Virus record (IMG/VR): IMGVR_UViG_3300012950_000020
Location: 1-27,044 of that record
DNA: 27,044 nt
Direction: 5' to 3' (one strand)
Origin: a virus
Shown here one piece after another: positions 2,418 to 16,101 of this stretch. Numbering within the stretch: the first letter of the stretch is position 1; every line of letters begins with the position of its first letter. The translations under genes were made by a program, and so were the position numbers. The notes beneath the pieces were generated by a model. The model saw nothing but the letters and a program-made list of their open reading frames with translations. It had not been told where the DNA came from and did not search any database.

Positions 2418-2921
2418 GTGCAGTTAACAGATGAAGCTTTCGCCCAATTGGTGGCGGAAGAAGTAAAAAATAAGTTATCTCCTGAACAGCGAGAAACTTT
2501 ATTGAACTCAACACATTGGGATAGATGGATGCGAGCATTAAATGCTCTTGCTGAAAATCTTCAATCTCAAATAGAGAGTATTGAAATGGATGCAGAGTCG
2601 GATGCGAATCGCTATACCGCTTTAGGTCGAGAAGGAAAAAAGTTAGCCAGAGAAGCAGAAAATGCTTATGCATCCAAAAGAGCAAAGATTGAACGTTTCA
2701 AGTTTCATGTTGACAAACGCTTAGACCAAGTAATGGGAATGATCCAAACGGGTAAGCCCATTGATATGAATCCATTTGAGTCAGCCAACTTTTATCGACG
2801 CGCAATTTCCAAACATAGGGAATTGATGAACACTTACGATCTTGAAGACACCGCTATAGATCGTGCCCTATGGGCGGCGTTGGAAAACAAGTGGGACTTC
2901 GATGAGGTGACCACTGTATGA
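2418..2921 (+). CDS. Hypothetical helical protein
   Basis: The GTG at 2418 is preferred over ATG 2397 because GGAGG at 2408-2412 sits 5 bases upstream, and it starts just after the previous stop (2413-2415). The 167-residue product is almost entirely charged and predicted alpha-helical. The stretch from about residue 45 to 100 (rich in Glu, Ala, Lys, Arg) looks like a coiled coil. There are no cysteines or catalytic motifs. The stop overlaps the HNH gene in an ATGA. It is probably an accessory factor of the recombination block, but I do not recognise the family. Confidence 0.75.
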   Translation: MQLTDEAFAQLVAEEVKNKLSPEQRETLLNSTHWDRWMRALNALAENLQSQIESIEMDAESDANRYTALGREGKKLAREAENAYASKRAKIERFKFHVDKRLDQVMGMIQTGKPIDMNPFESANFYRRAISKHRELMNTYDLEDTAIDRALWAALENKWDFDEVTTV

Positions 2922-3316
2922 AACGCAAGAAACCGATGAAGCGTAGCGGACCCCTTAAGCGCAATACTCCGTTAAAGAGGACAAGTTCACTTAAGAGGAC
3001 GGGTTCTCTTAAACCACGCAGTAAAAAGACTCAACAGAAATATGTTGAACGTCGTAAGGTGGTTGCTCGTCTTTTAGAGGAGCGACCATATTGTGAAGCG
3101 TGCCCTGTTTGGGCAAAGCATGATGAGGTTACGCTTTATAAGCGAAATGCCAGTGTTGATATTCATGAATTAAAACGACGCTCTCAGGGTGGATCAATTC
3201 TGGATGAAGAAAATCTTATGGCTGTTTGTCGTGAGTGTCATGATCGCATAGGACGAGAACCAGCTTTGTCCATAGAACTTGGATTAGCGGTACATGGATG
3301 GTGGCAAAAACCATGA
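2918..3316 (+). CDS. HNH endonuclease with Lys-Arg repeat N-terminus
   Basis: A 132-residue protein. Residues 1-35 are a run of short basic repeats of the type PLKR/SLKR, probably binding DNA nonspecifically. The HNH fold follows: zinc-binding pair C59/C62 (CEAC), catalytic region H83-E84 (VDIHELKRRSQGG), then C104/C107 with H108 (CRECHDRIG). These enzymes nick or cut DNA with one metal ion. Small phage HNH proteins with this basic leader often lie near terminase or recombination genes and can assist packaging cuts. The gene is embedded in a coupled operon (ATGA overlaps on both sides), which argues for a phage function rather than a free-standing homing endonuclease, though homing cannot be excluded. 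Confidence 0.88.
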   Translation: MKRKKPMKRSGPLKRNTPLKRTSSLKRTGSLKPRSKKTQQKYVERRKVVARLLEERPYCEACPVWAKHDEVTLYKRNASVDIHELKRRSQGGSILDEENLMAVCRECHDRIGREPALSIELGLAVHGWWQKP

Positions 3317-3855
3317 GGTTTATGGGTCTGGATTTGTCGCTTACCTCCACAGGGTATTCCTGTGACGGAGATACAGGTACGATCGCAGTCAAAACTAAAG
3401 GGGTTGAACGTCTTTTCAATATCCGTGATGAAGTGATGCTTGCTTGTCGTGAACATCGACCTGATGTTGTTGTTATTGAAGGTTACGCATTTTCGTCAAG
3501 AGCGAGCCATGCCCATTCGATTGGTGAATTAGGTGGCGTGATTCGTATTGCCCTCTATGAAAACAGTTTTGTTTTTGTAGAGATTCCTCCCACTTGTCGA
3601 GCAAAGTTTGCTACTGGTCGAGGGAACGCATCTAAAACTGAAGTGGTATCCGCCATCTCCGCTAGGACTGGAAAGACGTGGATTGGTAAAGGTGCAGATG
3701 ATGAATGCGATGCGTGGATTCTTGAACAAATGGGTCGAACTCAATTCGGATTTTCCGATTACGAATGGCCTATAAAAAACTTAGAGTCTTTAGCGGGCGT
3801 TGACTGGATACCCGCTTATGGGAAGTTAAACGAGAAGGAGCAAAATGAATTATAG
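3313..3855 (+). CDS. RuvC-like Holliday-junction resolvase
   Basis: ATG 3313 is selected over the upstream ATG 3298 because it forms an ATGA overlap with the HNH stop and begins directly at the first beta strand (MRFMGLDLSLTSTG). In this 180-residue reading the RNase-H/RuvC acidic residues fall at D7 (GLDLS), E56 (VVIEGYAF) and D130/D133 (ADDECDAWIL), the expected order and spacing. The family cuts four-way or branched junctions made by recombination or replication. It completes the block of annealase, exonuclease and HNH enzyme, and would resolve branched concatemers before packaging. Confidence 0.85.
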   Translation: MRFMGLDLSLTSTGYSCDGDTGTIAVKTKGVERLFNIRDEVMLACREHRPDVVVIEGYAFSSRASHAHSIGELGGVIRIALYENSFVFVEIPPTCRAKFATGRGNASKTEVVSAISARTGKTWIGKGADDECDAWILEQMGRTQFGFSDYEWPIKNLESLAGVDWIPAYGKLNEKEQNEL

Positions 3856-4192
3856 AACCTCTCCTATTAGTCAAGTCGATATTGAGAATCATCTTTTAAG
3901 ATTGATTGATGAGTTAGAAAGTGAAACTGAAGCATTCGAAGCTCTCGCTGAAGATCACGCAAAAAAAGAAGCCGCATATAAATCATCTTGGGCAAAAGAA
4001 TATTTATCAGCTAAAGGTTCGATTAAAGAAAGAGAATCTTGGGCCGACTACAAGTTGGCAGATGAACAGTATTTCTTCAAGATGGCTGAAGCTTTATTGA
4101 AGTCCAAACGTGAAAAGCTTCAGTCATTACGAACGGCTATAGATGCCATGAGAACGTTAAACGCAAATGTAAGGGTGCAGGTGGGGCCATGA
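3845..4192 (+). CDS. Hypothetical coiled-coil protein
   Basis: A 115-residue protein starting at ATG 3845 with GAAGGAG just upstream; it overlaps the end of the resolvase gene by 11 bases in another frame. Residues about 10-100 are highly charged with heptad-like spacing of hydrophobic residues, so one long helix or coiled coil is likely. No catalytic motif is visible. It is coupled to the ParB-like gene by an ATGA overlap at 4189-4192. Function unknown. Confidence 0.7.
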   Translation: MNYRTSPISQVDIENHLLRLIDELESETEAFEALAEDHAKKEAAYKSSWAKEYLSAKGSIKERESWADYKLADEQYFFKMAEALLKSKREKLQSLRTAIDAMRTLNANVRVQVGP

Positions 4193-4971
4193 CAGACAAC
4201 CATAAAGTTCACGAATCACTTAGTGATCTATTAGTTCCATTAAGTGATTTACAACCTTTGGAAAATAATCCAAGAGTAGGAAATATTGATGCAATTGTCG
4301 CATCATATGATGAATTCGGGCAGGTTAAACCTATTGTTATCCGCCCTAATAAGGACGACAAGGCAACTGTTATTGCCGGTAACCACCAAGTCCAAGCCGC
4401 AAAAAAACTTGGGTGGACTCATATTGCAGCCGTCCCCTTTGACGGAGACGACAAGCGAGCCGTTGCGTTTGCTTTGGCTGACAACCGGACGATGGAATTA
4501 GGACATACCGATACTGCTAGAGCCGCTGACATGATTTTAGAAGTCGTAGACGAGTACAACGATTTAATGGATGGACTTCTTTGGGATGACTTTGAAATCG
4601 CCCTATATGAAGAGCACGCTGAAAACGCCGCTGAGCGTGAGGGTGGTTCAACCACGTTCATTCGACCAGAAATTATTGAACCAACAAACGATGCTTTAGA
4701 TTCATTAGTTCAAGAAGATGAAGATGGTGAAAGAAAGATAGTTGCAGACGGCGATGTTGACCATAATGAAATTGCCGTAAAGGGAAGCACTGTTACTTCA
4801 CAGGGAGCATCACCTAAAGCAGTTGTTCAGTACACATTGGTGTTCGATGATCCTGCTCAGCAAAAAGAATGGTACGAATTTATTAGATGGCTTCGCTCTC
4901 AGCCCGCCTATGACGGTGAGACGACTGCCGAAAAACTTATGTCTTTTGTTGAGGCCCATTCAGAATTATGA
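4189..4971 (+). CDS. ParB/Srx-fold protein (IbrB-like), first of two
   Basis: A 260-residue protein. Residues 14-105 have the ParB N-terminal fold: LVPLSDLQPLENNPR with N27-P28-R29, a GQVKPIVIRP strand, the nucleotide/catalytic-loop equivalent ATVIAGNHQVQAAKKLG (G64-N65-H66-Q67 in place of the usual GxRR/GHHR), then ALADNRTMELG. Proteins of this fold include chromosome-segregation CTPases, nucleases and sulfiredoxin; phage members are poorly characterised. The middle is acidic, and the last 55 residues (from about VVQYTLVFDDPAQQKEWYEF) form a separate small domain common in phage ParB-like proteins. ATGA overlaps couple it to genes on both sides. The adjacent PP-loop gene reproduces the IbrB/IbrA pairing known from E. 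coli, so joint action is likely. Confidence 0.8.
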   Translation: MTDNHKVHESLSDLLVPLSDLQPLENNPRVGNIDAIVASYDEFGQVKPIVIRPNKDDKATVIAGNHQVQAAKKLGWTHIAAVPFDGDDKRAVAFALADNRTMELGHTDTARAADMILEVVDEYNDLMDGLLWDDFEIALYEEHAENAAEREGGSTTFIRPEIIEPTNDALDSLVQEDEDGERKIVADGDVDHNEIAVKGSTVTSQGASPKAVVQYTLVFDDPAQQKEWYEFIRWLRSQPAYDGETTAEKLMSFVEAHSEL

Positions 4972-6095
4972 CCCGTCAAAGAATGTTTCTCGACATCTCT
5001 TGTGTCGATGCCGCACGCCAACGAATACGTCACGTTTATGACACTTTTGACACAGTGTGCGTGCAGTTCTCTGGAGGGAAAGACAGCACGGCAGTTCTTT
5101 ATTTAGCTAAAGAAATTCATGAAGAGCGTGGGTTAGGGCCAGTCAAGGTCATCTTTAGGGATGAGGAAATGGTTAGCCCTCTCGTTCTTGAATATGTTGA
5201 AATGGTTAGAGATTTCGACTGGGTTGACATGGAATGGTATTGCCTCCCATATGGCGGAGAGGTTTGGGTTCTTGGACGACGACAACCCGTAGTGCTTTGG
5301 GGTGACTATCGAAAACAGCAAGATCGATGGGTTCGTGAAATGCCTGAAGGGGCGATTACAGCCGAATCGTTTGGATTAGAAGCAGGTGAGCCGCTACCTG
5401 AAGCTGTTGATTTTTACACAATGCAAGGCAAGCAAGGAAGCGTTGCTTTTATTACTGGTGTGCGAGCGGCAGAGTCAATGATTCGTTACCGCTCTTTGGT
5501 TCAAAAACTTCATGAAAATTATATTGTTACCCCTTATGGGTTGAAGCGTGGCACGCCTTTGAAGTTTGCGAAAGTTATTTATGATTGGAACGTAAATGAT
5601 GTTTTCAAATTCATAACAGAAGAACATGATGCTCCCTATTGTGAATATTACGACAGAGCCGCTTTAACAGGTTCTAATACACGAGTCGGTATTCCACTTC
5701 ACTCTGTCGCTATTAGACGTATCGGAGATGTTGTTGCTACGGAACCAGATTTTTATGATCGCTTGTATGAATGTTTCCCTCAGATCGACGCACAGCGTCG
5801 CTGGTGGCCCGACTTTGCTATAGAGCAATTGATTGAAAGTTATGCCGAGCGAGGTTGGGATGGCGTCACGGACGTCATAAACGATTACATGATTGGTGAC
5901 TCTAAGTTGCGTAGGGCTAAGGCTTATACTGCGGAATTCAGAAAGAAGCATGCGTTAGACCCACACTCTTATCCAATTAACTGGTTGATTAGAAATCTTT
6001 TATTAAACGAACTCACTACAACATCGGCTTCCCCTGTGGGACCGAAAACTAGGGCTCACACGTTGAGACAGAAAGCAGCGGAGGAAGCTTCATGA
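4968..6095 (+). CDS. PP-loop ATPase of the 'PAPS reductase' fold, IbrA-like
   Basis: A 375-residue protein. The PP-loop SGGKDST is at residues 35-41, after a short helix and strand (YDTFDTVCVQF), and marks an N-type ATP pyrophosphatase that adenylates a substrate. Downstream are FITGVRAAESMIRYRS (a substrate-binding region seen in PAPS reductase-fold proteins), IYDWNVNDVFKFI, and YYDRAALTGSNTRVGIPLHS, a pattern of IbrA/DUF3440-type proteins. The C-terminal ECGLH catalytic motif of true CysH is absent, so sulfate assimilation is not supported. It lies between two ParB-like genes with ATGA overlaps on both sides. Possible roles, all inference, include thiolation or other modification of nucleic acid, or regulation as reported for E. 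coli IbrA/IbrB. Confidence 0.82.
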   Translation: MTRQRMFLDISCVDAARQRIRHVYDTFDTVCVQFSGGKDSTAVLYLAKEIHEERGLGPVKVIFRDEEMVSPLVLEYVEMVRDFDWVDMEWYCLPYGGEVWVLGRRQPVVLWGDYRKQQDRWVREMPEGAITAESFGLEAGEPLPEAVDFYTMQGKQGSVAFITGVRAAESMIRYRSLVQKLHENYIVTPYGLKRGTPLKFAKVIYDWNVNDVFKFITEEHDAPYCEYYDRAALTGSNTRVGIPLHSVAIRRIGDVVATEPDFYDRLYECFPQIDAQRRWWPDFAIEQLIESYAERGWDGVTDVINDYMIGDSKLRRAKAYTAEFRKKHALDPHSYPINWLIRNLLLNELTTTSASPVGPKTRAHTLRQKAAEEAS

Positions 6096-6643
6096 ATATA
6101 GAACAATGTTCTTTAGATGAATTAAACGTTCCAGAGTGGAATGCTACATACATTCTTAGACCGGATTTATTAGTGCTCACATCTTCACTTATGGATTACG
6201 GAGTTCTTTCCCCTTTGGTTGTTCAAAAGGATGGAATGAATGTCATAGATGGCTCTCAAAGATTGCAGGTAATGAGAGGCAATAAGTATTTATCGGAAAA
6301 ATTTGCTGATGGTGTGCCTGTTCAAATAATTGATTGTGGTGACACGGAAGCGATGGCTTTGCATATTCAATTAAATCGTGGACGCGGGAACATTGTCGCC
6401 CACAAACTTTCCCGAATCGTAAAACAGTTAAAACGGTCTAAAGCATTTTCTGTAGAAGATTTTGTAAGTCGCTTTTCAATGAAAGGTGACGAACTCGAAT
6501 TAATGTTAGATGGTTCGATTATCAAGCATCGTAAAGTTCCTAATCATAGGTATTCAATGGCATGGGTTCCGGTTGAAGCTCCACCTGGAACAGTTGAGAA
6601 AAAAGAACCTAAAACCGAAAAACCACCTGGTCCTGATAGGTGA
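6092..6643 (+). CDS. ParB-like protein, second of two
   Basis: A 183-residue protein. Its N-terminal half is ParB-like: CSLDELNVPEWNATYILRPD, GVLSPLVVQKDG, then VIDGSQRLQVMRG (residues 51-63, equivalent to the VIDGHHR loop), and ALHIQLNRGRGNI. The centre (about 100-150) is helical and could contain a helix-turn-helix (RIVKQLKRSKAFSVEDFVSR). The tail is Pro/Lys/Glu-rich and probably disordered. It shares little sequence with the first ParB-like protein apart from the fold, so the two are not a recent duplication. It is the last gene of the coupled series, ending at TGA 6641-6643 just before a probable promoter region. Confidence 0.75.
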   Translation: MNIEQCSLDELNVPEWNATYILRPDLLVLTSSLMDYGVLSPLVVQKDGMNVIDGSQRLQVMRGNKYLSEKFADGVPVQIIDCGDTEAMALHIQLNRGRGNIVAHKLSRIVKQLKRSKAFSVEDFVSRFSMKGDELELMLDGSIIKHRKVPNHRYSMAWVPVEAPPGTVEKKEPKTEKPPGPDR

Positions 6644-6713: not shown

Positions 6714-6887
6714 ATGCCCTCACCCGGTAGAGGAAGAGAATTCGGTTTTCGACGAGCAGGACGACTTCGTCGAAGTATTCGTAATGTTTTGCGTGCCCGT
6801 GAAGCTCGTGGTAGACGTGGTCGTTTAGCCACTGGTCGTGTGCGAGATATTATTCGTGGTAGAGACCGTGGCGGCGTTATCAGATAG
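6714..6887 (+). CDS. Very arginine-rich 57-residue protein
   Basis: ATG 6714 has GGAAGG 7 bases upstream and the frame runs to TAG at 6885-6887. Of 57 residues 20 are Arg and none is Lys, spread evenly as RGR, RRAGR, RGRRGR, with Gly and small hydrophobic residues between. It mixes AGA, CGA and CGT codons and avoids Lys codons, so the bias is at the protein level rather than composition. No fold is recognised; it resembles protamine-like or nucleic-acid-condensing peptides. It directly precedes the head-tail connector (9-base gap, whose GGAG overlaps the end), so a virion or packaging role is possible. Alternative: an RNA-binding regulator. Confidence 0.7.
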   Translation: MPSPGRGREFGFRRAGRLRRSIRNVLRAREARGRRGRLATGRVRDIIRGRDRGGVIR

Positions 6888-9480: not shown

Positions 9481-10971
9481 ATGCCTGGCGTAGTTATTAA
9501 TACAGCAGTAAGAACGGGTCCATCGACTGACACGGTTCGCGATTCATCGCAAGCGTTTTTTGTCGGTTTGGCCCTGAGAGGCCCTGAAGAAAAGGCCGTA
9601 AAAATAACCAGTATTGCCGATTTTGAATCGGTTTATGGTACTTACCAGTCTTATGCATACTTGCATTCGACTGTGGAAACATTTTTTGAAGAGGGTGGAT
9701 CACAGTGCTACGTAGTTCGCGTTGTGGGTCCTGCCGCTACCGAGGGCGCACACAAGTGTCTTGATGGCTCCTCTGGCGACTCAGTCCAGTTGACCGCTGT
9801 TGGTCCTGGTGTGTGGTCCGCAAACATGACATTCACAGTCACTGATGGAACAATTGCCAGCAGTAAAATTGTGAAACTCTTTTACTACGGCGTAGAAATC
9901 TTCACGACAGGCAACTGCACCACCACTGATCAAATCACTGGTTCAATCAATGGAAGCGCTCTCGCATCAAAGTATGTGACATGTACAACACTAGGAACTA
10001 ACCTTCCAGCGAACCTAACTTCAACTACTTTAGAGCACTCAGATCAGCCTTCTGGCGGTACAACTGATTCCACAGATGATCGTGCAAACATCACAGCCTC
10101 ACACCACACTGCGGCATTGACCAAATTCAATCACGCTTATGGTACAGGTTGCGTGGCAAACCCAGAATCTGCAGCAACAGCGACCTATCAAGGTCTTATT
10201 GCTCACGCAAACAGCCACAACAGGATTGCTTTAGTGCATCCGGCTGCTTCACAAACAGTTGGACAAGCAGAAACATTTGCTGAGACAATCACAGCAAGTG
10301 AAACCAATACGGAACATGCAGCTTGCTACTTCCCATGGATCAACGTTCCTACCTCGACAGCAGGTGTAACACGCTTGATTCCACCAGACGGATACATTGC
10401 AGCCGCTCGTTCACGAGCACACAATCAGGTTGGACCACAACAGGCAGGCGCAGGAATCATCTCAAGTGCCCGTTGGGTAGTTTCCACAGAGTTGGAGATC
10501 GACCAAACCGACGGCGATGCACTAGACGTAGCAATGTGTAACGCTTTAAGGGTTATCAATGGTTCGCTTCGAGTTTACGGAGCACGGTCCCTATCGGGAG
10601 ACTCAACAAACTTCCGTTACATCACCGGTCAAGACACAGTCAACGGTGTAGTTACAGAAGCCAATGTGGCCTTGGAAGATCTTATCTTCGCAGTAATCGA
10701 TGGTCGAAATGACATCTTTACAGAAGTTGAGAGCAAGCTAGTTGCGATTCTTGAGCCACTCCGTCAGAGCGGAGCACTTTATGAAGCTTTTGATGTTAAC
10801 GGTAAACGAATCGACAAAGGCTACACCGTTATTTGTGATGCGTCGGTTAACCCAGTTACGCAACTTGCAGATGGACTCGTAAAAGCCAAAATTGGTCTTC
10901 GAGTTTCAAGTGTCGGTGACAAAATTGAAGTTGACATCGTCAAATCCAATCTAACGAACTCAGTGGTATAG
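9481..10971 (+). CDS. Tail sheath protein
   Basis: A 496-residue protein with a strong GGGAAGG site. The N-terminus MPGVVINTAVRTGPSTDTVR and the segment SQAFFVGLALRGPEEKAV, then DFESVYG, FFEEGGSQCYVVRV, are typical of contractile sheath proteins. The C-terminal third has the conserved helical core: FRYITGQDTVNGVVTEANVA, DIFTEVESKLVAILEPLRQS, GALYEAFDVNGKR, and an end strand of the VDIVKSNL type used to weave neighbouring subunits. The central part carries a Thr/Ser-rich beta insertion that would decorate the outside. The sheath forms the contracting cylinder around the tube and defines this phage as a myovirus. The tube gene follows after 13 bases. Confidence 0.93.
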   Translation: MPGVVINTAVRTGPSTDTVRDSSQAFFVGLALRGPEEKAVKITSIADFESVYGTYQSYAYLHSTVETFFEEGGSQCYVVRVVGPAATEGAHKCLDGSSGDSVQLTAVGPGVWSANMTFTVTDGTIASSKIVKLFYYGVEIFTTGNCTTTDQITGSINGSALASKYVTCTTLGTNLPANLTSTTLEHSDQPSGGTTDSTDDRANITASHHTAALTKFNHAYGTGCVANPESAATATYQGLIAHANSHNRIALVHPAASQTVGQAETFAETITASETNTEHAACYFPWINVPTSTAGVTRLIPPDGYIAAARSRAHNQVGPQQAGAGIISSARWVVSTELEIDQTDGDALDVAMCNALRVINGSLRVYGARSLSGDSTNFRYITGQDTVNGVVTEANVALEDLIFAVIDGRNDIFTEVESKLVAILEPLRQSGALYEAFDVNGKRIDKGYTVICDASVNPVTQLADGLVKAKIGLRVSSVGDKIEVDIVKSNLTNSVV

Positions 10972-12312: not shown

Positions 12313-15300
12313 ATGGCCGCAGAAACCGAACTAAAGATTCAGGTTGATGTTGACGGCACCCGTAAACTCGACCGGTTAGAGCGCAAGATACGCTCACTGG
12401 AACGCACTGTTGACAAACTAGGGATGAAATCCACTCGTGTTTTCCGTGATTACGGAAGAACGATGGAAAACACGATCGGTAAATCGTCTGGTAAATGGAA
12501 AAGACACTTTGATGATTTAGATGGTCTTATTAAAAAGTTTGGTACCGCCACTCTTGGTGGATTAAAACTTGCCTTAAAGGCTGCTGGTGCGGAAATGGCT
12601 TTAATGGCCATTTCTATGGTTGCTTTACATGGTTTATTTAAAATAGGGCAAGGTCTTGTCAAAACATATCAAGGTTTATTAAACGTTCTTTCTGGCGCTG
12701 CTGCTGGTGCAGCCGTTTCTTTAGCTGCCGTTTCCGCTGCTCTTCGAGAGCAGAATGCTGCGATGTTTGCCTTTAGGGGCAACACAATGAAAGGATATGA
12801 CGGTTTTGTCAATGGAGTAAATAAAGTTCGTGTAGTAATGCGCGGCCTTCACCGTGACCAATCTATGGCTGCTGCCGGAGCCGCCAACTTAGATGCAGCT
12901 TTTGCGGCAGTATCGCGAAAATCGACATTTACTGGTGGATCACAAAACATGCTTCGTGATTTGATGGATTTCGCTGCTGCAGGTGGCGACATCAAAAAAG
13001 GAATGTCCACTGCTGGCGACTTGATCGGAACATTGCAGACAGAGAAAGGCACCGGCTGGAAAGGCATAGCTAAAAGCATGGGTCCCCAGATGGAGCAAGC
13101 TTTTAGGGAACTCGGTATTAAAAGCAGGGAAGAGTTCCAGGAGGCTTTATCATCTGGAGCGTTGGCAAAAGCAGGTGGCGTAACAGGACAATGGGGTGCC
13201 GTTAGTGGAACTCTAATTTCAGAATTTAAAAAAGCGACGACAATAATCAGAGCAGACTTTGCTGATCTAGGTCAATCGCTATTAAAGCCACTTAAAGAAA
13301 CATTAGATGAAATGGTTGCCACATTCCGTAATGGACTGAACAGGGTTTGGTTGCCTTTACTTGAATTCGCTCATGGTCCTTTCTTGGACTCTTTAGGTGG
13401 ATTCACTGAAAAGCTATCTGACATGTTCGTAAGTCTCGTTCGACGTGGCCCAGAAGTCGAAGGAATGTTTGAACGTATCGGCGATCGTTGGCGAGGATTC
13501 GTTGACGGCTGGAACGACGTAATTGAACGCTTACAGCCCATGATCGAAGGAGCCAGAGTTCTCGAAGGCATGTTCGGAGAGATGTTTGGATCTATAGGTG
13601 ACTACATAAGAGAGTCATTCGGTCGATTCAGTGAGTTGCTACAAGAGAACGAACCTGAAGTCCGAAAATTTGGAGCACGCTTAGGTGAACTATTTGCTTC
13701 TTTTGGAAGATTCCAAAACGAATTGAAAGAGCTTTTCTTTCAAGCATTGCCTTTCATAAACAAAGTTTTAGGAGGCGTGCGAAACATCGTAGACGTATTA
13801 GGTTCAGTCATTCGTGGCGGTCGCGGAATAATGGGCGCTGTCGGAGACGGAGCCGGAGCTTACGGACTCATGGCAGGAGCCATGGTTATTTTAAGCAAGC
13901 TTAGAAGTTGGGCTGGCGGTTTCCTTTTCCAAAAACAAACAAACACAATGAATGTGACCGCAGGGTCAGTCAACGTGGGCGGAGCACCCCTAGGCGGCGC
14001 TACTGGCGTGACTGGCGGCGGACAAATGAACGCTGTGAAACGGGCTGAAATGGAAAAACAGGGCATGAGGTCAATGACCTATGGTCAAAGAGTAGCTTCA
14101 GATAATCGGGCCATGCAACATCAAGCGGCGATGGGTGGGTCACAACCAACATGGGTTCAAAGAAAAATCGGTTCTAGATGGCGTGCCATGCGTCAACCTT
14201 CGGAAGCTATGCGTGGCAGAATTTCTGGGAGCATGGGCACCCGAATGGGCTTAGGTATGGGCTTGGGTATACTTTCAAGTCGTGTAGATGAAGAATCTCA
14301 AGGCGTTATGGGTCTCGGTGCAGCCGCATCATTTGTTAATCCAATGATTGGTGGGGCCATCGCCGGACTCGGTGTGGCATCTACGAGCACAAGTACCGTA
14401 CAGTCAACACTCGGTGGTATCGGCGGTGGAGCCGCACTAGGTATGCAACTTGGCGGACCTTGGGGTGCTTTAGGTGGAGCCATCATAGGTGGCGCTTATG
14501 GTGCACTTACTGCTGGTGCTCGTAAAGCAGCCAAGCAGAAAAAAGCTGCTCGTGCGGCTGGCGAGGCCATGTCTAACGCACTTTTTGAAAGTGTGACCAG
14601 TCACCTTGAAGGTCAAGCTAAAATAGTAGGTGGTGCCCGCGCTGGAACAATTACAAACATAAAAGGGGCACTACAGTCAACTGGCTTAAGGGATCTGACT
14701 CAGAGACTCGCCGTAGCTCAAGCCACCGGGCTGGGGCATGGAGAATTACTAGGCGAACTTTCGAAAGATTCACGTTTCAAGGATCTAATTCCTGAAGATC
14801 TTAAAGAAGAAAACTGGGGCGACGTTATCGGCGCAATGGCGACGCGGGCGACCGAAGATTGGGTTGCTCTTTCAAAAACACTGAACAATACTGAAAAAAA
14901 TATAAACGCTGTTAGTAAAGCTTTCGGAGTAGGCAATATAGCCATAAACGAAATGGCTGCGGTTACTGAAACTGACCTGGTCAGCGCTACCGCCGGATTT
15001 GGATGGATAGCAAAGAGTTTAGCTGGCGCTCTAGTTAATGACATACGGGAATTAGGTTATGCACAAGCAGATCGAACAGCGGCCATACAGTCAGGGCTTG
15101 CAAATTATGGAAAGAAATTAGAAGCTCCTAAATCGTTCGACGAAGCAGCCCAAAACATTAGAAATATTGTGCAAGCTTCTGACGGCAATTTATCTGATAC
15201 CGACAAAGTCGGCATCGCTGATGAACTCAGCAATATGTTTAGGTACTCACAAGAGTTAACAGGTTCCGCCACTGGCGGAGCCAGAGCAATGAACGAACTT

Positions 15301-16101
15301 TTCGGACCTGGTGGGCAAATTTTTGGTGAAAATCAAATGCTGGAAGGAATGGAAGGTACGTTAATGAACATTCCTGGCATCGCAGCAGCCATAGGGGCTA
15401 ATGACGCCAGTGTCAGAAATCAAAGATTCGATGCTTCTGAAGTCTTAATATCCCAGCTTCTATCTGCCGATATGAAGGGCGCTAATGGGGAGTTAATCAA
15501 CCAATCAGATATTCTTTCACAGCTTAGTAATTCCGATATGCAGATGCTTGAGAACTCTGGGCTCCTTAGTGCAAATGCATTCTTCGACGATCAGGGCAAC
15601 GCCATGACTGCTAGTCAAATTGAGCAAATGCTACTTGAAAAAGGTGGCATAAGGCTTTCACTTAAACAAATGAGTGAGGAAGAGCTACGAGGGCCAGAAG
15701 ATGCGTTCTCGGCGGCTGTAGATAACTTTGTTACCGCTGTTAACACCATGATAAAGGGAGATACCTCCACCCCTCGTCGAAACATGGTGAAAATGAGCAA
15801 CATGCTTGGTAGGTCAAGCTCTTCAGACCATGCGTCTGGAGATGCTTTCGACTTATATGGCAGTGGACTAGGTTCTGAGATGACATCCATTCGCAATGCT
15901 GGTGGATACGCGGATATGCACGGTGCTGGAAAAACACGCCATTTACACGCTGTACCCGGTCAGGGAATGGGTGGCGGCGGAACCAGTAACCAATACGTAA
16001 TCAATGTAACGGGTGGAGATAATGCCTCTCCTGCACAGATAGCAGACGAAGTCATGGATCGAATTGATCGACGTTCTGTAGATAATTACGAAAGGGCTTG
16101 A
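12313..16101 (+). CDS. Tape measure protein with C-terminal peptidase-like motif
   Basis: A 1262-residue protein with GGGTGG before ATG 12313, by far the longest gene. Residues 1-65 are coiled coil (RKLDRLERKIRSLERTVDKL). A hydrophobic Ala/Gly-rich region at about 80-145 and a glycine-zipper-like stretch at about 630-740 could insert into the host membrane. Between them are long amphipathic helices. Near the end SDHASGDAFD (H1173, D1180) with RHLHAV (H1210, H1212) follows the H-x(6)-D...H-x-H layout of M15-type or related cell-wall peptidases; family members in actinophage tape measures carry the same element. Its length sets tail length: at about 1.5 angstrom per residue, some 190 nm (rule of thumb). 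The last residues bind the hub complex. Confidence 0.9.
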   Translation: MAAETELKIQVDVDGTRKLDRLERKIRSLERTVDKLGMKSTRVFRDYGRTMENTIGKSSGKWKRHFDDLDGLIKKFGTATLGGLKLALKAAGAEMALMAISMVALHGLFKIGQGLVKTYQGLLNVLSGAAAGAAVSLAAVSAALREQNAAMFAFRGNTMKGYDGFVNGVNKVRVVMRGLHRDQSMAAAGAANLDAAFAAVSRKSTFTGGSQNMLRDLMDFAAAGGDIKKGMSTAGDLIGTLQTEKGTGWKGIAKSMGPQMEQAFRELGIKSREEFQEALSSGALAKAGGVTGQWGAVSGTLISEFKKATTIIRADFADLGQSLLKPLKETLDEMVATFRNGLNRVWLPLLEFAHGPFLDSLGGFTEKLSDMFVSLVRRGPEVEGMFERIGDRWRGFVDGWNDVIERLQPMIEGARVLEGMFGEMFGSIGDYIRESFGRFSELLQENEPEVRKFGARLGELFASFGRFQNELKELFFQALPFINKVLGGVRNIVDVLGSVIRGGRGIMGAVGDGAGAYGLMAGAMVILSKLRSWAGGFLFQKQTNTMNVTAGSVNVGGAPLGGATGVTGGGQMNAVKRAEMEKQGMRSMTYGQRVASDNRAMQHQAAMGGSQPTWVQRKIGSRWRAMRQPSEAMRGRISGSMGTRMGLGMGLGILSSRVDEESQGVMGLGAAASFVNPMIGGAIAGLGVASTSTSTVQSTLGGIGGGAALGMQLGGPWGALGGAIIGGAYGALTAGARKAAKQKKAARAAGEAMSNALFESVTSHLEGQAKIVGGARAGTITNIKGALQSTGLRDLTQRLAVAQATGLGHGELLGELSKDSRFKDLIPEDLKEENWGDVIGAMATRATEDWVALSKTLNNTEKNINAVSKAFGVGNIAINEMAAVTETDLVSATAGFGWIAKSLAGALVNDIRELGYAQADRTAAIQSGLANYGKKLEAPKSFDEAAQNIRNIVQASDGNLSDTDKVGIADELSNMFRYSQELTGSATGGARAMNELFGPGGQIFGENQMLEGMEGTLMNIPGIAAAIGANDASVRNQRFDASEVLISQLLSADMKGANGELINQSDILSQLSNSDMQMLENSGLLSANAFFDDQGNAMTASQIEQMLLEKGGIRLSLKQMSEEELRGPEDAFSAAVDNFVTAVNTMIKGDTSTPRRNMVKMSNMLGRSSSSDHASGDAFDLYGSGLGSEMTSIRNAGGYADMHGAGKTRHLHAVPGQGMGGGGTSNQYVINVTGGDNASPAQIADEVMDRIDRRSVDNYERA

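Follow-up and report, generated by a model that had tools for sequence, protein, structure and literature searches.

A ParB/PP-loop/ParB gene cassette of a contractile-tailed phage as a probable DNA-modification module

Escherichia coli encodes the proteins IbrA and IbrB, of PP-loop and ParB-like type, in adjacent and coupled genes, and the role described for the pair is co-activation of prophage genes (the eib genes). Iyer et al. in 2013 reportedly predicted PP-loop enzymes that make "lysidine-like" modifications of phage DNA. ParB-superfamily proteins are partners of several DNA writers, among them DpdB (PMC12839542), DndB (PMC10853773), and ParB–methylase fusions (PMC5512222), and ParBc genes are found near those of CmoX cytosine carboxymethyltransferases (PMC12783734). 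We analyzed a cassette of three genes, g1, g2, and g3, in which an IbrA-like PP-loop protein is flanked by two ParB-fold proteins, on the IMG/VR record IMGVR_UViG_3300012950_000020. The window is the entire record of 27,044 bases, a fragment of 27 kb, and its source is a phage with a contractile tail (tail sheath phrog_23 at 9481–10971). The cassette consists of the following features:

4189–4971, plus strand: g1, ParB-fold protein 1 (260 amino acids), with a ParB N-domain, a helical domain, a linker, and a conserved C-terminal segment
4968–4971, plus strand: ATGA overlap of g1 and g2
4968–6095, plus strand: g2, IbrA-like PP-loop ATP pyrophosphatase (375 amino acids; Pfam PAPS_reduct 1.2e-9, phrog_2302 1e-75)
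5070–5087, plus strand: invariant PP-loop motif SGGKDS (g2 residues 35–40)
6092–6095, plus strand: ATGA overlap of g2 and g3
6092–6643, plus strand: g3, IbrB-like ParB-fold protein 2 (183 amino acids), with an N-domain, helices resembling a helix-turn-helix (HTH), and a disordered, conserved tail
6248–6262, plus strand: nucleotide-pocket motif DGxxR of g3 (residues 53–57; D53, G54, and R57 invariant)

The open reading frame (ORF) coordinates and both junctions reproduced exactly the ATGA-joined layout given in a preliminary description of the sequence. We propose that the cassette is probably a phage DNA-modification module, made up of an IbrA-like writer (g2), an IbrB-like ParB loader (g3), and a general ParB accessory (g1). 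The proposal is based on fold, motifs, conservation, gene coupling, the exclusivity of an enzyme slot, and the positional replacement of known modification modules. Among the functions first suggested for the cassette (DNA or RNA modification, host takeover, and counterdefense), DNA modification is the best supported, by the replacement at the Bclasvirinae locus and by a slot occupied by a GNAT or a methyltransferase.

Close relatives of g2 are encoded in 586 viral stretches, and we fetched 80 of those loci. In a tree of 235 g2 sequences, the window clade was separate from a sister phage clade; we call loci with at least 60% g2 identity to the window the near clade, while the sister phage clade lies at about 25–37%.

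The positional replacement of known modification modules is the strongest evidence for DNA modification. At the left genome end of Bclasvirinae, a g1-type ParB (gp1, matching the g1 profile at 1e-31 to 1e-65) is followed by a module and then by the terminase; the terminases are 57–75% identical to each other and 52–56% identical to that of the Gordonia phage Ligma. The position between ParB and terminase is filled as follows:

Arbiter (Rosebushvirus): DpdA-QueC-QueD-QueE-GTP cyclohydrolase (GCH1)
Saguaro: a DpdA/Que set as in Arbiter, according to annotation
Stinger: Tet_JBP (score below the Pfam cut-off) and P-loop nucleotide kinase 3
Acadian: Tet_JBP (below the Pfam cut-off), TET-associated glycosyltransferase (TAGT, 6.5e-38), and PIG-L
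Ligma (related Gordonia phage): GNAT and formyltransferase
Obutu: two small ORFs and IbrA-IbrB

Arbiter stands in for Rosebush, which is of the same species according to the Arbiter record; by liquid chromatography–mass spectrometry, the DNA of Rosebush has about 28% of its G as dPreQ0 (PMC6884629). The g1 of the window belongs to one orthologous family with gp1 of phages of the Rosebush, Cooper, and Acadian types. In two other phages, a g1-type ParB accompanies Mom, directly adjoining it in Phonegingi (gp46–47; Mom Pfam 5e-46, ParB hidden Markov model [HMM] 3e-42) and with one small gene in between in Zartrosa (gp71–73; Mom Pfam 4e-61, ParB HMM 9e-35). The cassette thus has the g1-type ParB and the Bclasvirinae locus in common with Dpd, the 7-deazaguanine system of DpdA, the ParB-like DpdB, and QueC/D/E, but it has no TGT/DpdA and its PP-loop enzyme is of the PAPS-reductase type rather than QueC. 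Another modification-like neighborhood is found in Microbacterium phage Rasputia (locus L006, 1110–6167), where three glycosyltransferases, an acetyltransferase, and a methyltransferase are followed by a PAPS-reductase-like gene in last place, with no ParB.

Cassettes of actinophages, such as those of Arthrobacter phage Kovu and Mycobacterium phage Obutu, have the same three genes in the same order as the window and are ∼35–38% identical to it; unlike the window, many of their relatives carry an extra GNAT or methyltransferase and an HNH-like gene. The sister phage clade, whose members include Kovu, Bacillus phage 031MP002, and a prophage in Nocardia, provided 60 loci in which the slot beside ParB–PP-loop–ParB could be compared. 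A GNAT alone was present in 29 of them, a methyltransferase alone in 21, and neither in 10, while no locus had both (Fisher exact P = 5.6e-9 for the exclusivity); an HNH-like protein, in which the positions C-C-H-Y-C-C-H-H are invariant, followed in 48 of the 60. The GNATs matched generic Pfam GNAT families, with no match to the Mom family, and the methyltransferase (phrog_11826) has a class-I S-adenosylmethionine motif with weak Pfam support. Neither slot family had a match in 727 kb of distal flank. On the tree, the slot label changed 17 times among 61 tips, near the random expectation (mean 19.2), and it switched between well-supported sisters such as L104 and L105. Exchangeable finishing enzymes in one slot are as expected of a small-group modification pathway, and the swap between acetyl and methyl predicts a mark with at least two finished forms. 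An extended arrangement was observed in prophi79-1, a prophage of M. abscessus (locus L402, 5026–9834), with the order ParB-ParB-PP-loop-ParB-methyltransferase-HNH before the terminase and the PP-loop gene annotated as "nucleotidyltransferase".

As first noted, the middle protein has SGGKDST at residues 35–41, and S35–S40 were invariant in 80 relatives. D65, E67, W111, G164, R166, E169, R173, D206-W207, D211, Y228, and R239 were likewise invariant in this alignment, and the arginines R19, R123, R166, R173, and R239 were invariant or almost so. Synonymous sites were saturated in every pair tried (dN 0.05–0.37), which makes the ratio of nonsynonymous to synonymous changes (dN/dS) unusable and allows only strong amino-acid conservation to be stated.

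The structure prediction proposed earlier for the three proteins was carried out with AlphaFold2 for g2 and g3 singly (predicted local distance difference test, pLDDT, of 91 and 87, respectively). The best fold match of g2 was the 3′-phosphoadenosine-5′-phosphosulfate (PAPS) domain of human flavin adenine dinucleotide (FAD) synthase (Z 16.6; root-mean-square deviation 3.0 over 171 residues), and other top matches were adenosine-5′-phosphosulfate (APS)/PAPS reductases (Z ∼14–15), flavin mononucleotide (FMN) adenylyltransferase (14.7), and the ATP sulfurylase CysD (14.6); matches less than one Z unit apart are tied, and a common fold is not proof of function. FAD synthase shares the motif YC..YD with g2, at ∼19% identity and with the C-terminal helical region of g2 (270–375) unmatched. 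With the exception of the cysteine-dependent APS/PAPS reductases, the enzymes behind the top matches transfer AMP to phosphate or sulfate. By domain and fold, g2 resembles CysH; the family lacks its C-terminal ECGLH catalytic cysteine, found in none of the 80 aligned relatives, and no cysteine was invariant across them. The CysH label is therefore wrong for the g2 family, as the preliminary description had argued for the single protein. Because the nearest folds transfer AMP and g2 has no cysteine route, we infer that g2 may use ATP to activate, by adenylyl transfer, an acceptor that is anionic or offers an oxygen.

The absence of an invariant cysteine also makes iron–sulfur thiolation of the DndC/TtcA kind unlikely, and with it the thio modification raised earlier as something to look for; thiolation of the DndC, TtcA, or LarE type was rejected for lack of conserved cysteines in the g2 family. 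Phosphorothioation by DndC-type enzymes needs cysteines for [4Fe-4S] and sulfur transfer (PMC11662687, PMC10853773). The cassette and Dnd/Ssp phosphorothioation, with its writer DndC and the ParB-fold proteins DndB, DndI, and SspE, have in common the pairing of a PAPS-reductase-class PP-loop enzyme with a ParB fold, but the match between g2 and DndC was weak and covered the PP-loop only (3e-7), and the g2 family is without the conserved cysteines for Fe-S or persulfide. Pfam and PHROGs scans found no DndA, DndD, or DndE among the neighbors in the 27-kb fragment.

The two ParB-fold proteins had been called unrelated-looking, yet their profiles aligned over 133 columns (E = 9e-15), and g1 and g3 are homologous. 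g1 matched Pfam ParB_N (7e-8), phrog_723 (2.6e-34), and a Noc/ParB profile (3e-19) and has the conserved C-terminal segment VQYTxVFDxxxQQxxWYxFxRWLR; it keeps the ParB fold with an altered nucleotide pocket, GNHQ standing where ParB has GERR. g3 had no match in Pfam and matched the ParB family phrog_2159 (2.6e-22), and the fold search with its model returned the ParB/Noc/KorB fold. Its N-domain gave Z 13.5 to Myxococcus ParB with CTPgammaS, and residues 1–155 aligned with KorB (Z 12.9), followed by the disordered tail. The conserved pocket positions D53-G54-x-x-R57 and N95-R96, together with the predicted ParB N-domain and HTH fold, liken g3 to a ParB-type CTPase DNA clamp, and the tail pattern WVPxE...PPxxDR, conserved within the clade, suggests a binding peptide.

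Co-occurrence of the triplet across phages, for which a survey had been proposed, was far beyond chance. Among 46 nonredundant viral g2 relatives with full flanks, 41 had both ParB genes and 45 had g3 downstream; within the near clade, g1 was present in 45 and g3 in 46 of 48 loci. Bacterial IbrA loci keep a g3 homologue downstream of the g2 homologue (59/60) and rarely have g1 (2/60), and g2-g3 is therefore the core pair and g1 a phage addition, in agreement with the first account of an IbrA/IbrB-like pair joined by an extra ParB. IbrA (PAPS_reduct plus DUF3440) and IbrB (ParB_N-like) resemble g2-g3 in gene arrangement, and IbrA shares the motifs SGGKDS, D..E, GIRAxES, and DW..D with g2; the profile of a DUF3440-bearing IbrA aligned with g2 over 336 columns (E = 1.4e-45). 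The C-terminal DUF3440 itself had no match in g2 at E = 0.1, in contrast to 7e-34 in Enterobacter IbrA. The triplet, put forward earlier as the best candidate for an undescribed system, has itself been seen before: in SEA-PHAGES records, phages of Arthrobacter and Mycobacterium have genes annotated ParB / PAPS reductase-like / ParB.

Some loci contained additional genes. In some relatives of the near clade, g1 and g2 are separated by a thyX-like gene (flavin-dependent thymidylate synthase), called by eye from the motif RHRxxSxNExSxRY (L022, 6719–7411; L039, 7336–8004), and a predicted secreted protein of ∼350 amino acids with a zinc-protease-like HESTH (HExxH) motif lies between g2 and g3 in two loci (L016, 9143–10192; L017, 9143–10213). 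Bacterial IbrA-IbrB loci (L173, L199, L231, L191, and others) adjoin an SNF2-type helicase in 15 of 60 cases and a GNAT in 10 of 60, which suggests a larger IbrAB toolkit; the bacterial set thus differs from that of the window clade.

We envisage g2 as the catalytic subunit, which would bind ATP at the PP-loop and, by transferring or using an adenylyl group, activate an acceptor that bears phosphate or oxygen; the acceptor would most likely be part of DNA or of one of its precursors, and neither iron–sulfur nor cysteine chemistry would be involved. Translationally coupled to g2, g3 would be a ParB-type nucleotide-switch partner that binds DNA and loads g2 onto it, and its disordered tail may dock on g2. 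The second ParB, g1, would be an accessory of the type that phages pair with chemically different DNA modifiers (DpdA, TET, and Mom). In the sister clade, the product would be finished by an acetyltransferase or a methyltransferase. The adenylylation chemistry, DNA as the substrate, and the role of each ParB are read from these patterns, and the phage would presumably benefit because its DNA is shielded against nucleases of the host.

Several observations weigh against DNA modification by the cassette of the window. No GNAT or methyltransferase tailoring gene was found in the 48 window-clade loci, and 18 longer near-clade records contained no GNAT, methyltransferase, or HNH-like gene in searches with positive controls for the first two. 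The slot evidence comes from relatives at about 25–37% g2 identity, and so does the positional replacement, the g2 of Obutu being 35% identical to that of the window. The window-clade cassette is placed between recombination and head–tail genes, and a g2–ParB fusion was found in none of 396 loci. Some neighbors of g1-type ParBs are not tied to DNA modification, namely GNAT/AAA in Jace and, in the Gordonia phage Hanem (L403, 3432–5015), a DUF4417 domain fused to the g1-type ParB domain. Finally, co-activation of prophage genes is the role on record for the E. coli pair.

This last point leads to the alternative of a transcription co-activator, in which IbrA-IbrB, with g1, would switch phage or host genes as E. 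coli IbrAB does with eib; g3 would act on DNA in the manner of KorB or Noc, and g2 would modify or sense a nucleotide or an RNA polymerase partner. The ParB/Noc/KorB folds nearest to g3 and the long alignment of g2 with a canonical DUF3440 IbrA are in its favor, and database records label IbrA/IbrB-like genes co-activators of prophage gene expression. It gives, however, no account of why the pair, next to the same ParB, takes the place of the DpdA/Que and TET modules, leaves the exclusive GNAT/methyltransferase slot unexplained, and needs less than the invariant catalytic residues of g2. We consider a pure regulator unlikely, and the regulatory role of IbrAB is compatible with a side effect of DNA marking.

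Counterdefense or host takeover, through modification of proteins, RNA, or the nucleotide pool (for example, AMP added to a host protein or tRNA) with the ParBs as NTPases, appears quite unlikely. FAD-synthase and ATP-sulfurylase folds pass AMP to small acceptors, GNATs and methyltransferases frequently target proteins or RNA, and ParB domains can be NTPases (PMC5512222); two partners of the ParB/HTH DNA-binding type and a locus shared with DNA-modification modules nevertheless favor DNA.

A role in recombination or packaging, with the ParB-fold proteins as nicking nucleases or clamps and the PP-loop protein as their regulator, is suggested by the neighboring Rad52, PD-(D/E)XK, RuvC, and terminase genes. 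As had been noted, the cassette ends a recombination operon: g1-g2-g3 close a same-strand series of Rad52-type, PD-(D/E)XK, HNH, and RuvC-like genes, with head–tail genes next downstream (Pfam, PHROGs). The upstream members of the operon nearest to the cassette are as follows:

2918–3316, plus strand: HNH endonuclease (Pfam HNH 6.8e-5), of a gene family that recurs in 22 near-clade loci
3298–3855, plus strand: RuvC-like resolvase (phrog_159 8e-39)

In other phages and prophages, however, the ParB–PP-loop–ParB set lies far from recombination genes, and it is the cassette, not its surroundings, that determines the gene order, making such a helper role highly improbable. A true PAPS reductase of auxiliary sulfur metabolism is scarcely credible: the PAPS_reduct domain and comparable labels in viral surveys (PMC8319345, PMC10434257) stand against the missing ECGLH site and invariant cysteine and the constant coupling of g2 to ParB genes.

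A scan for promoters and terminators gave no excess over shuffled sequence, and no Rfam families or tRNAs were found in the window. Elsewhere in the window, a very arginine-rich ORF of 57 amino acids lies between g3 and the head–tail adaptor (6714–6887), and an arginine-rich protein of 133 amino acids occupies the matching position in L157. The ORF at 12313–16101 (1,262 amino acids), with no PHROG match at 1e-4, is by size and position a probable tape measure gene.

Hundreds of phages, prophages, and plasmids carry IbrA/IbrB-like pairs (g2 relatives in 215 phage and 568 plasmid records), and we know of no chemistry for them. Phage forms of these pairs are routinely tallied as sulfur-metabolism genes in viromes, and the mislabeling that the preliminary description warned of is real, reports of viral "cysH" auxiliary metabolic genes that rely on the PAPS_reduct domain being widespread; members linked to ParB, which lack the catalytic cysteine, do not belong in counts of sulfate assimilation genes. 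Relatives of the cassette are visible in databases and have never been described as a modification system in the papers searched. With positional replacement, what was a vague annotation becomes a claim that can be tested, and cultured, harmless phages are at hand in the Pipefish-type mycobacteriophages, Arthrobacter phages, and a Bacillus subtilis phage. More tentatively, and with somewhat less than even confidence, we suggest that the cassette represents a new class of DNA hypermodification, in which a cysteine-free enzyme of the PAPS-reductase fold, guided by ParB clamps, would adenylylate DNA or a base for the attachment of a group that an acetyl- or methyltransferase caps in the sister clade. 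E. coli IbrAB would fall into such a class, as would many viral "cysH" genes, and the regulation of eib would then be a by-product of DNA marking.

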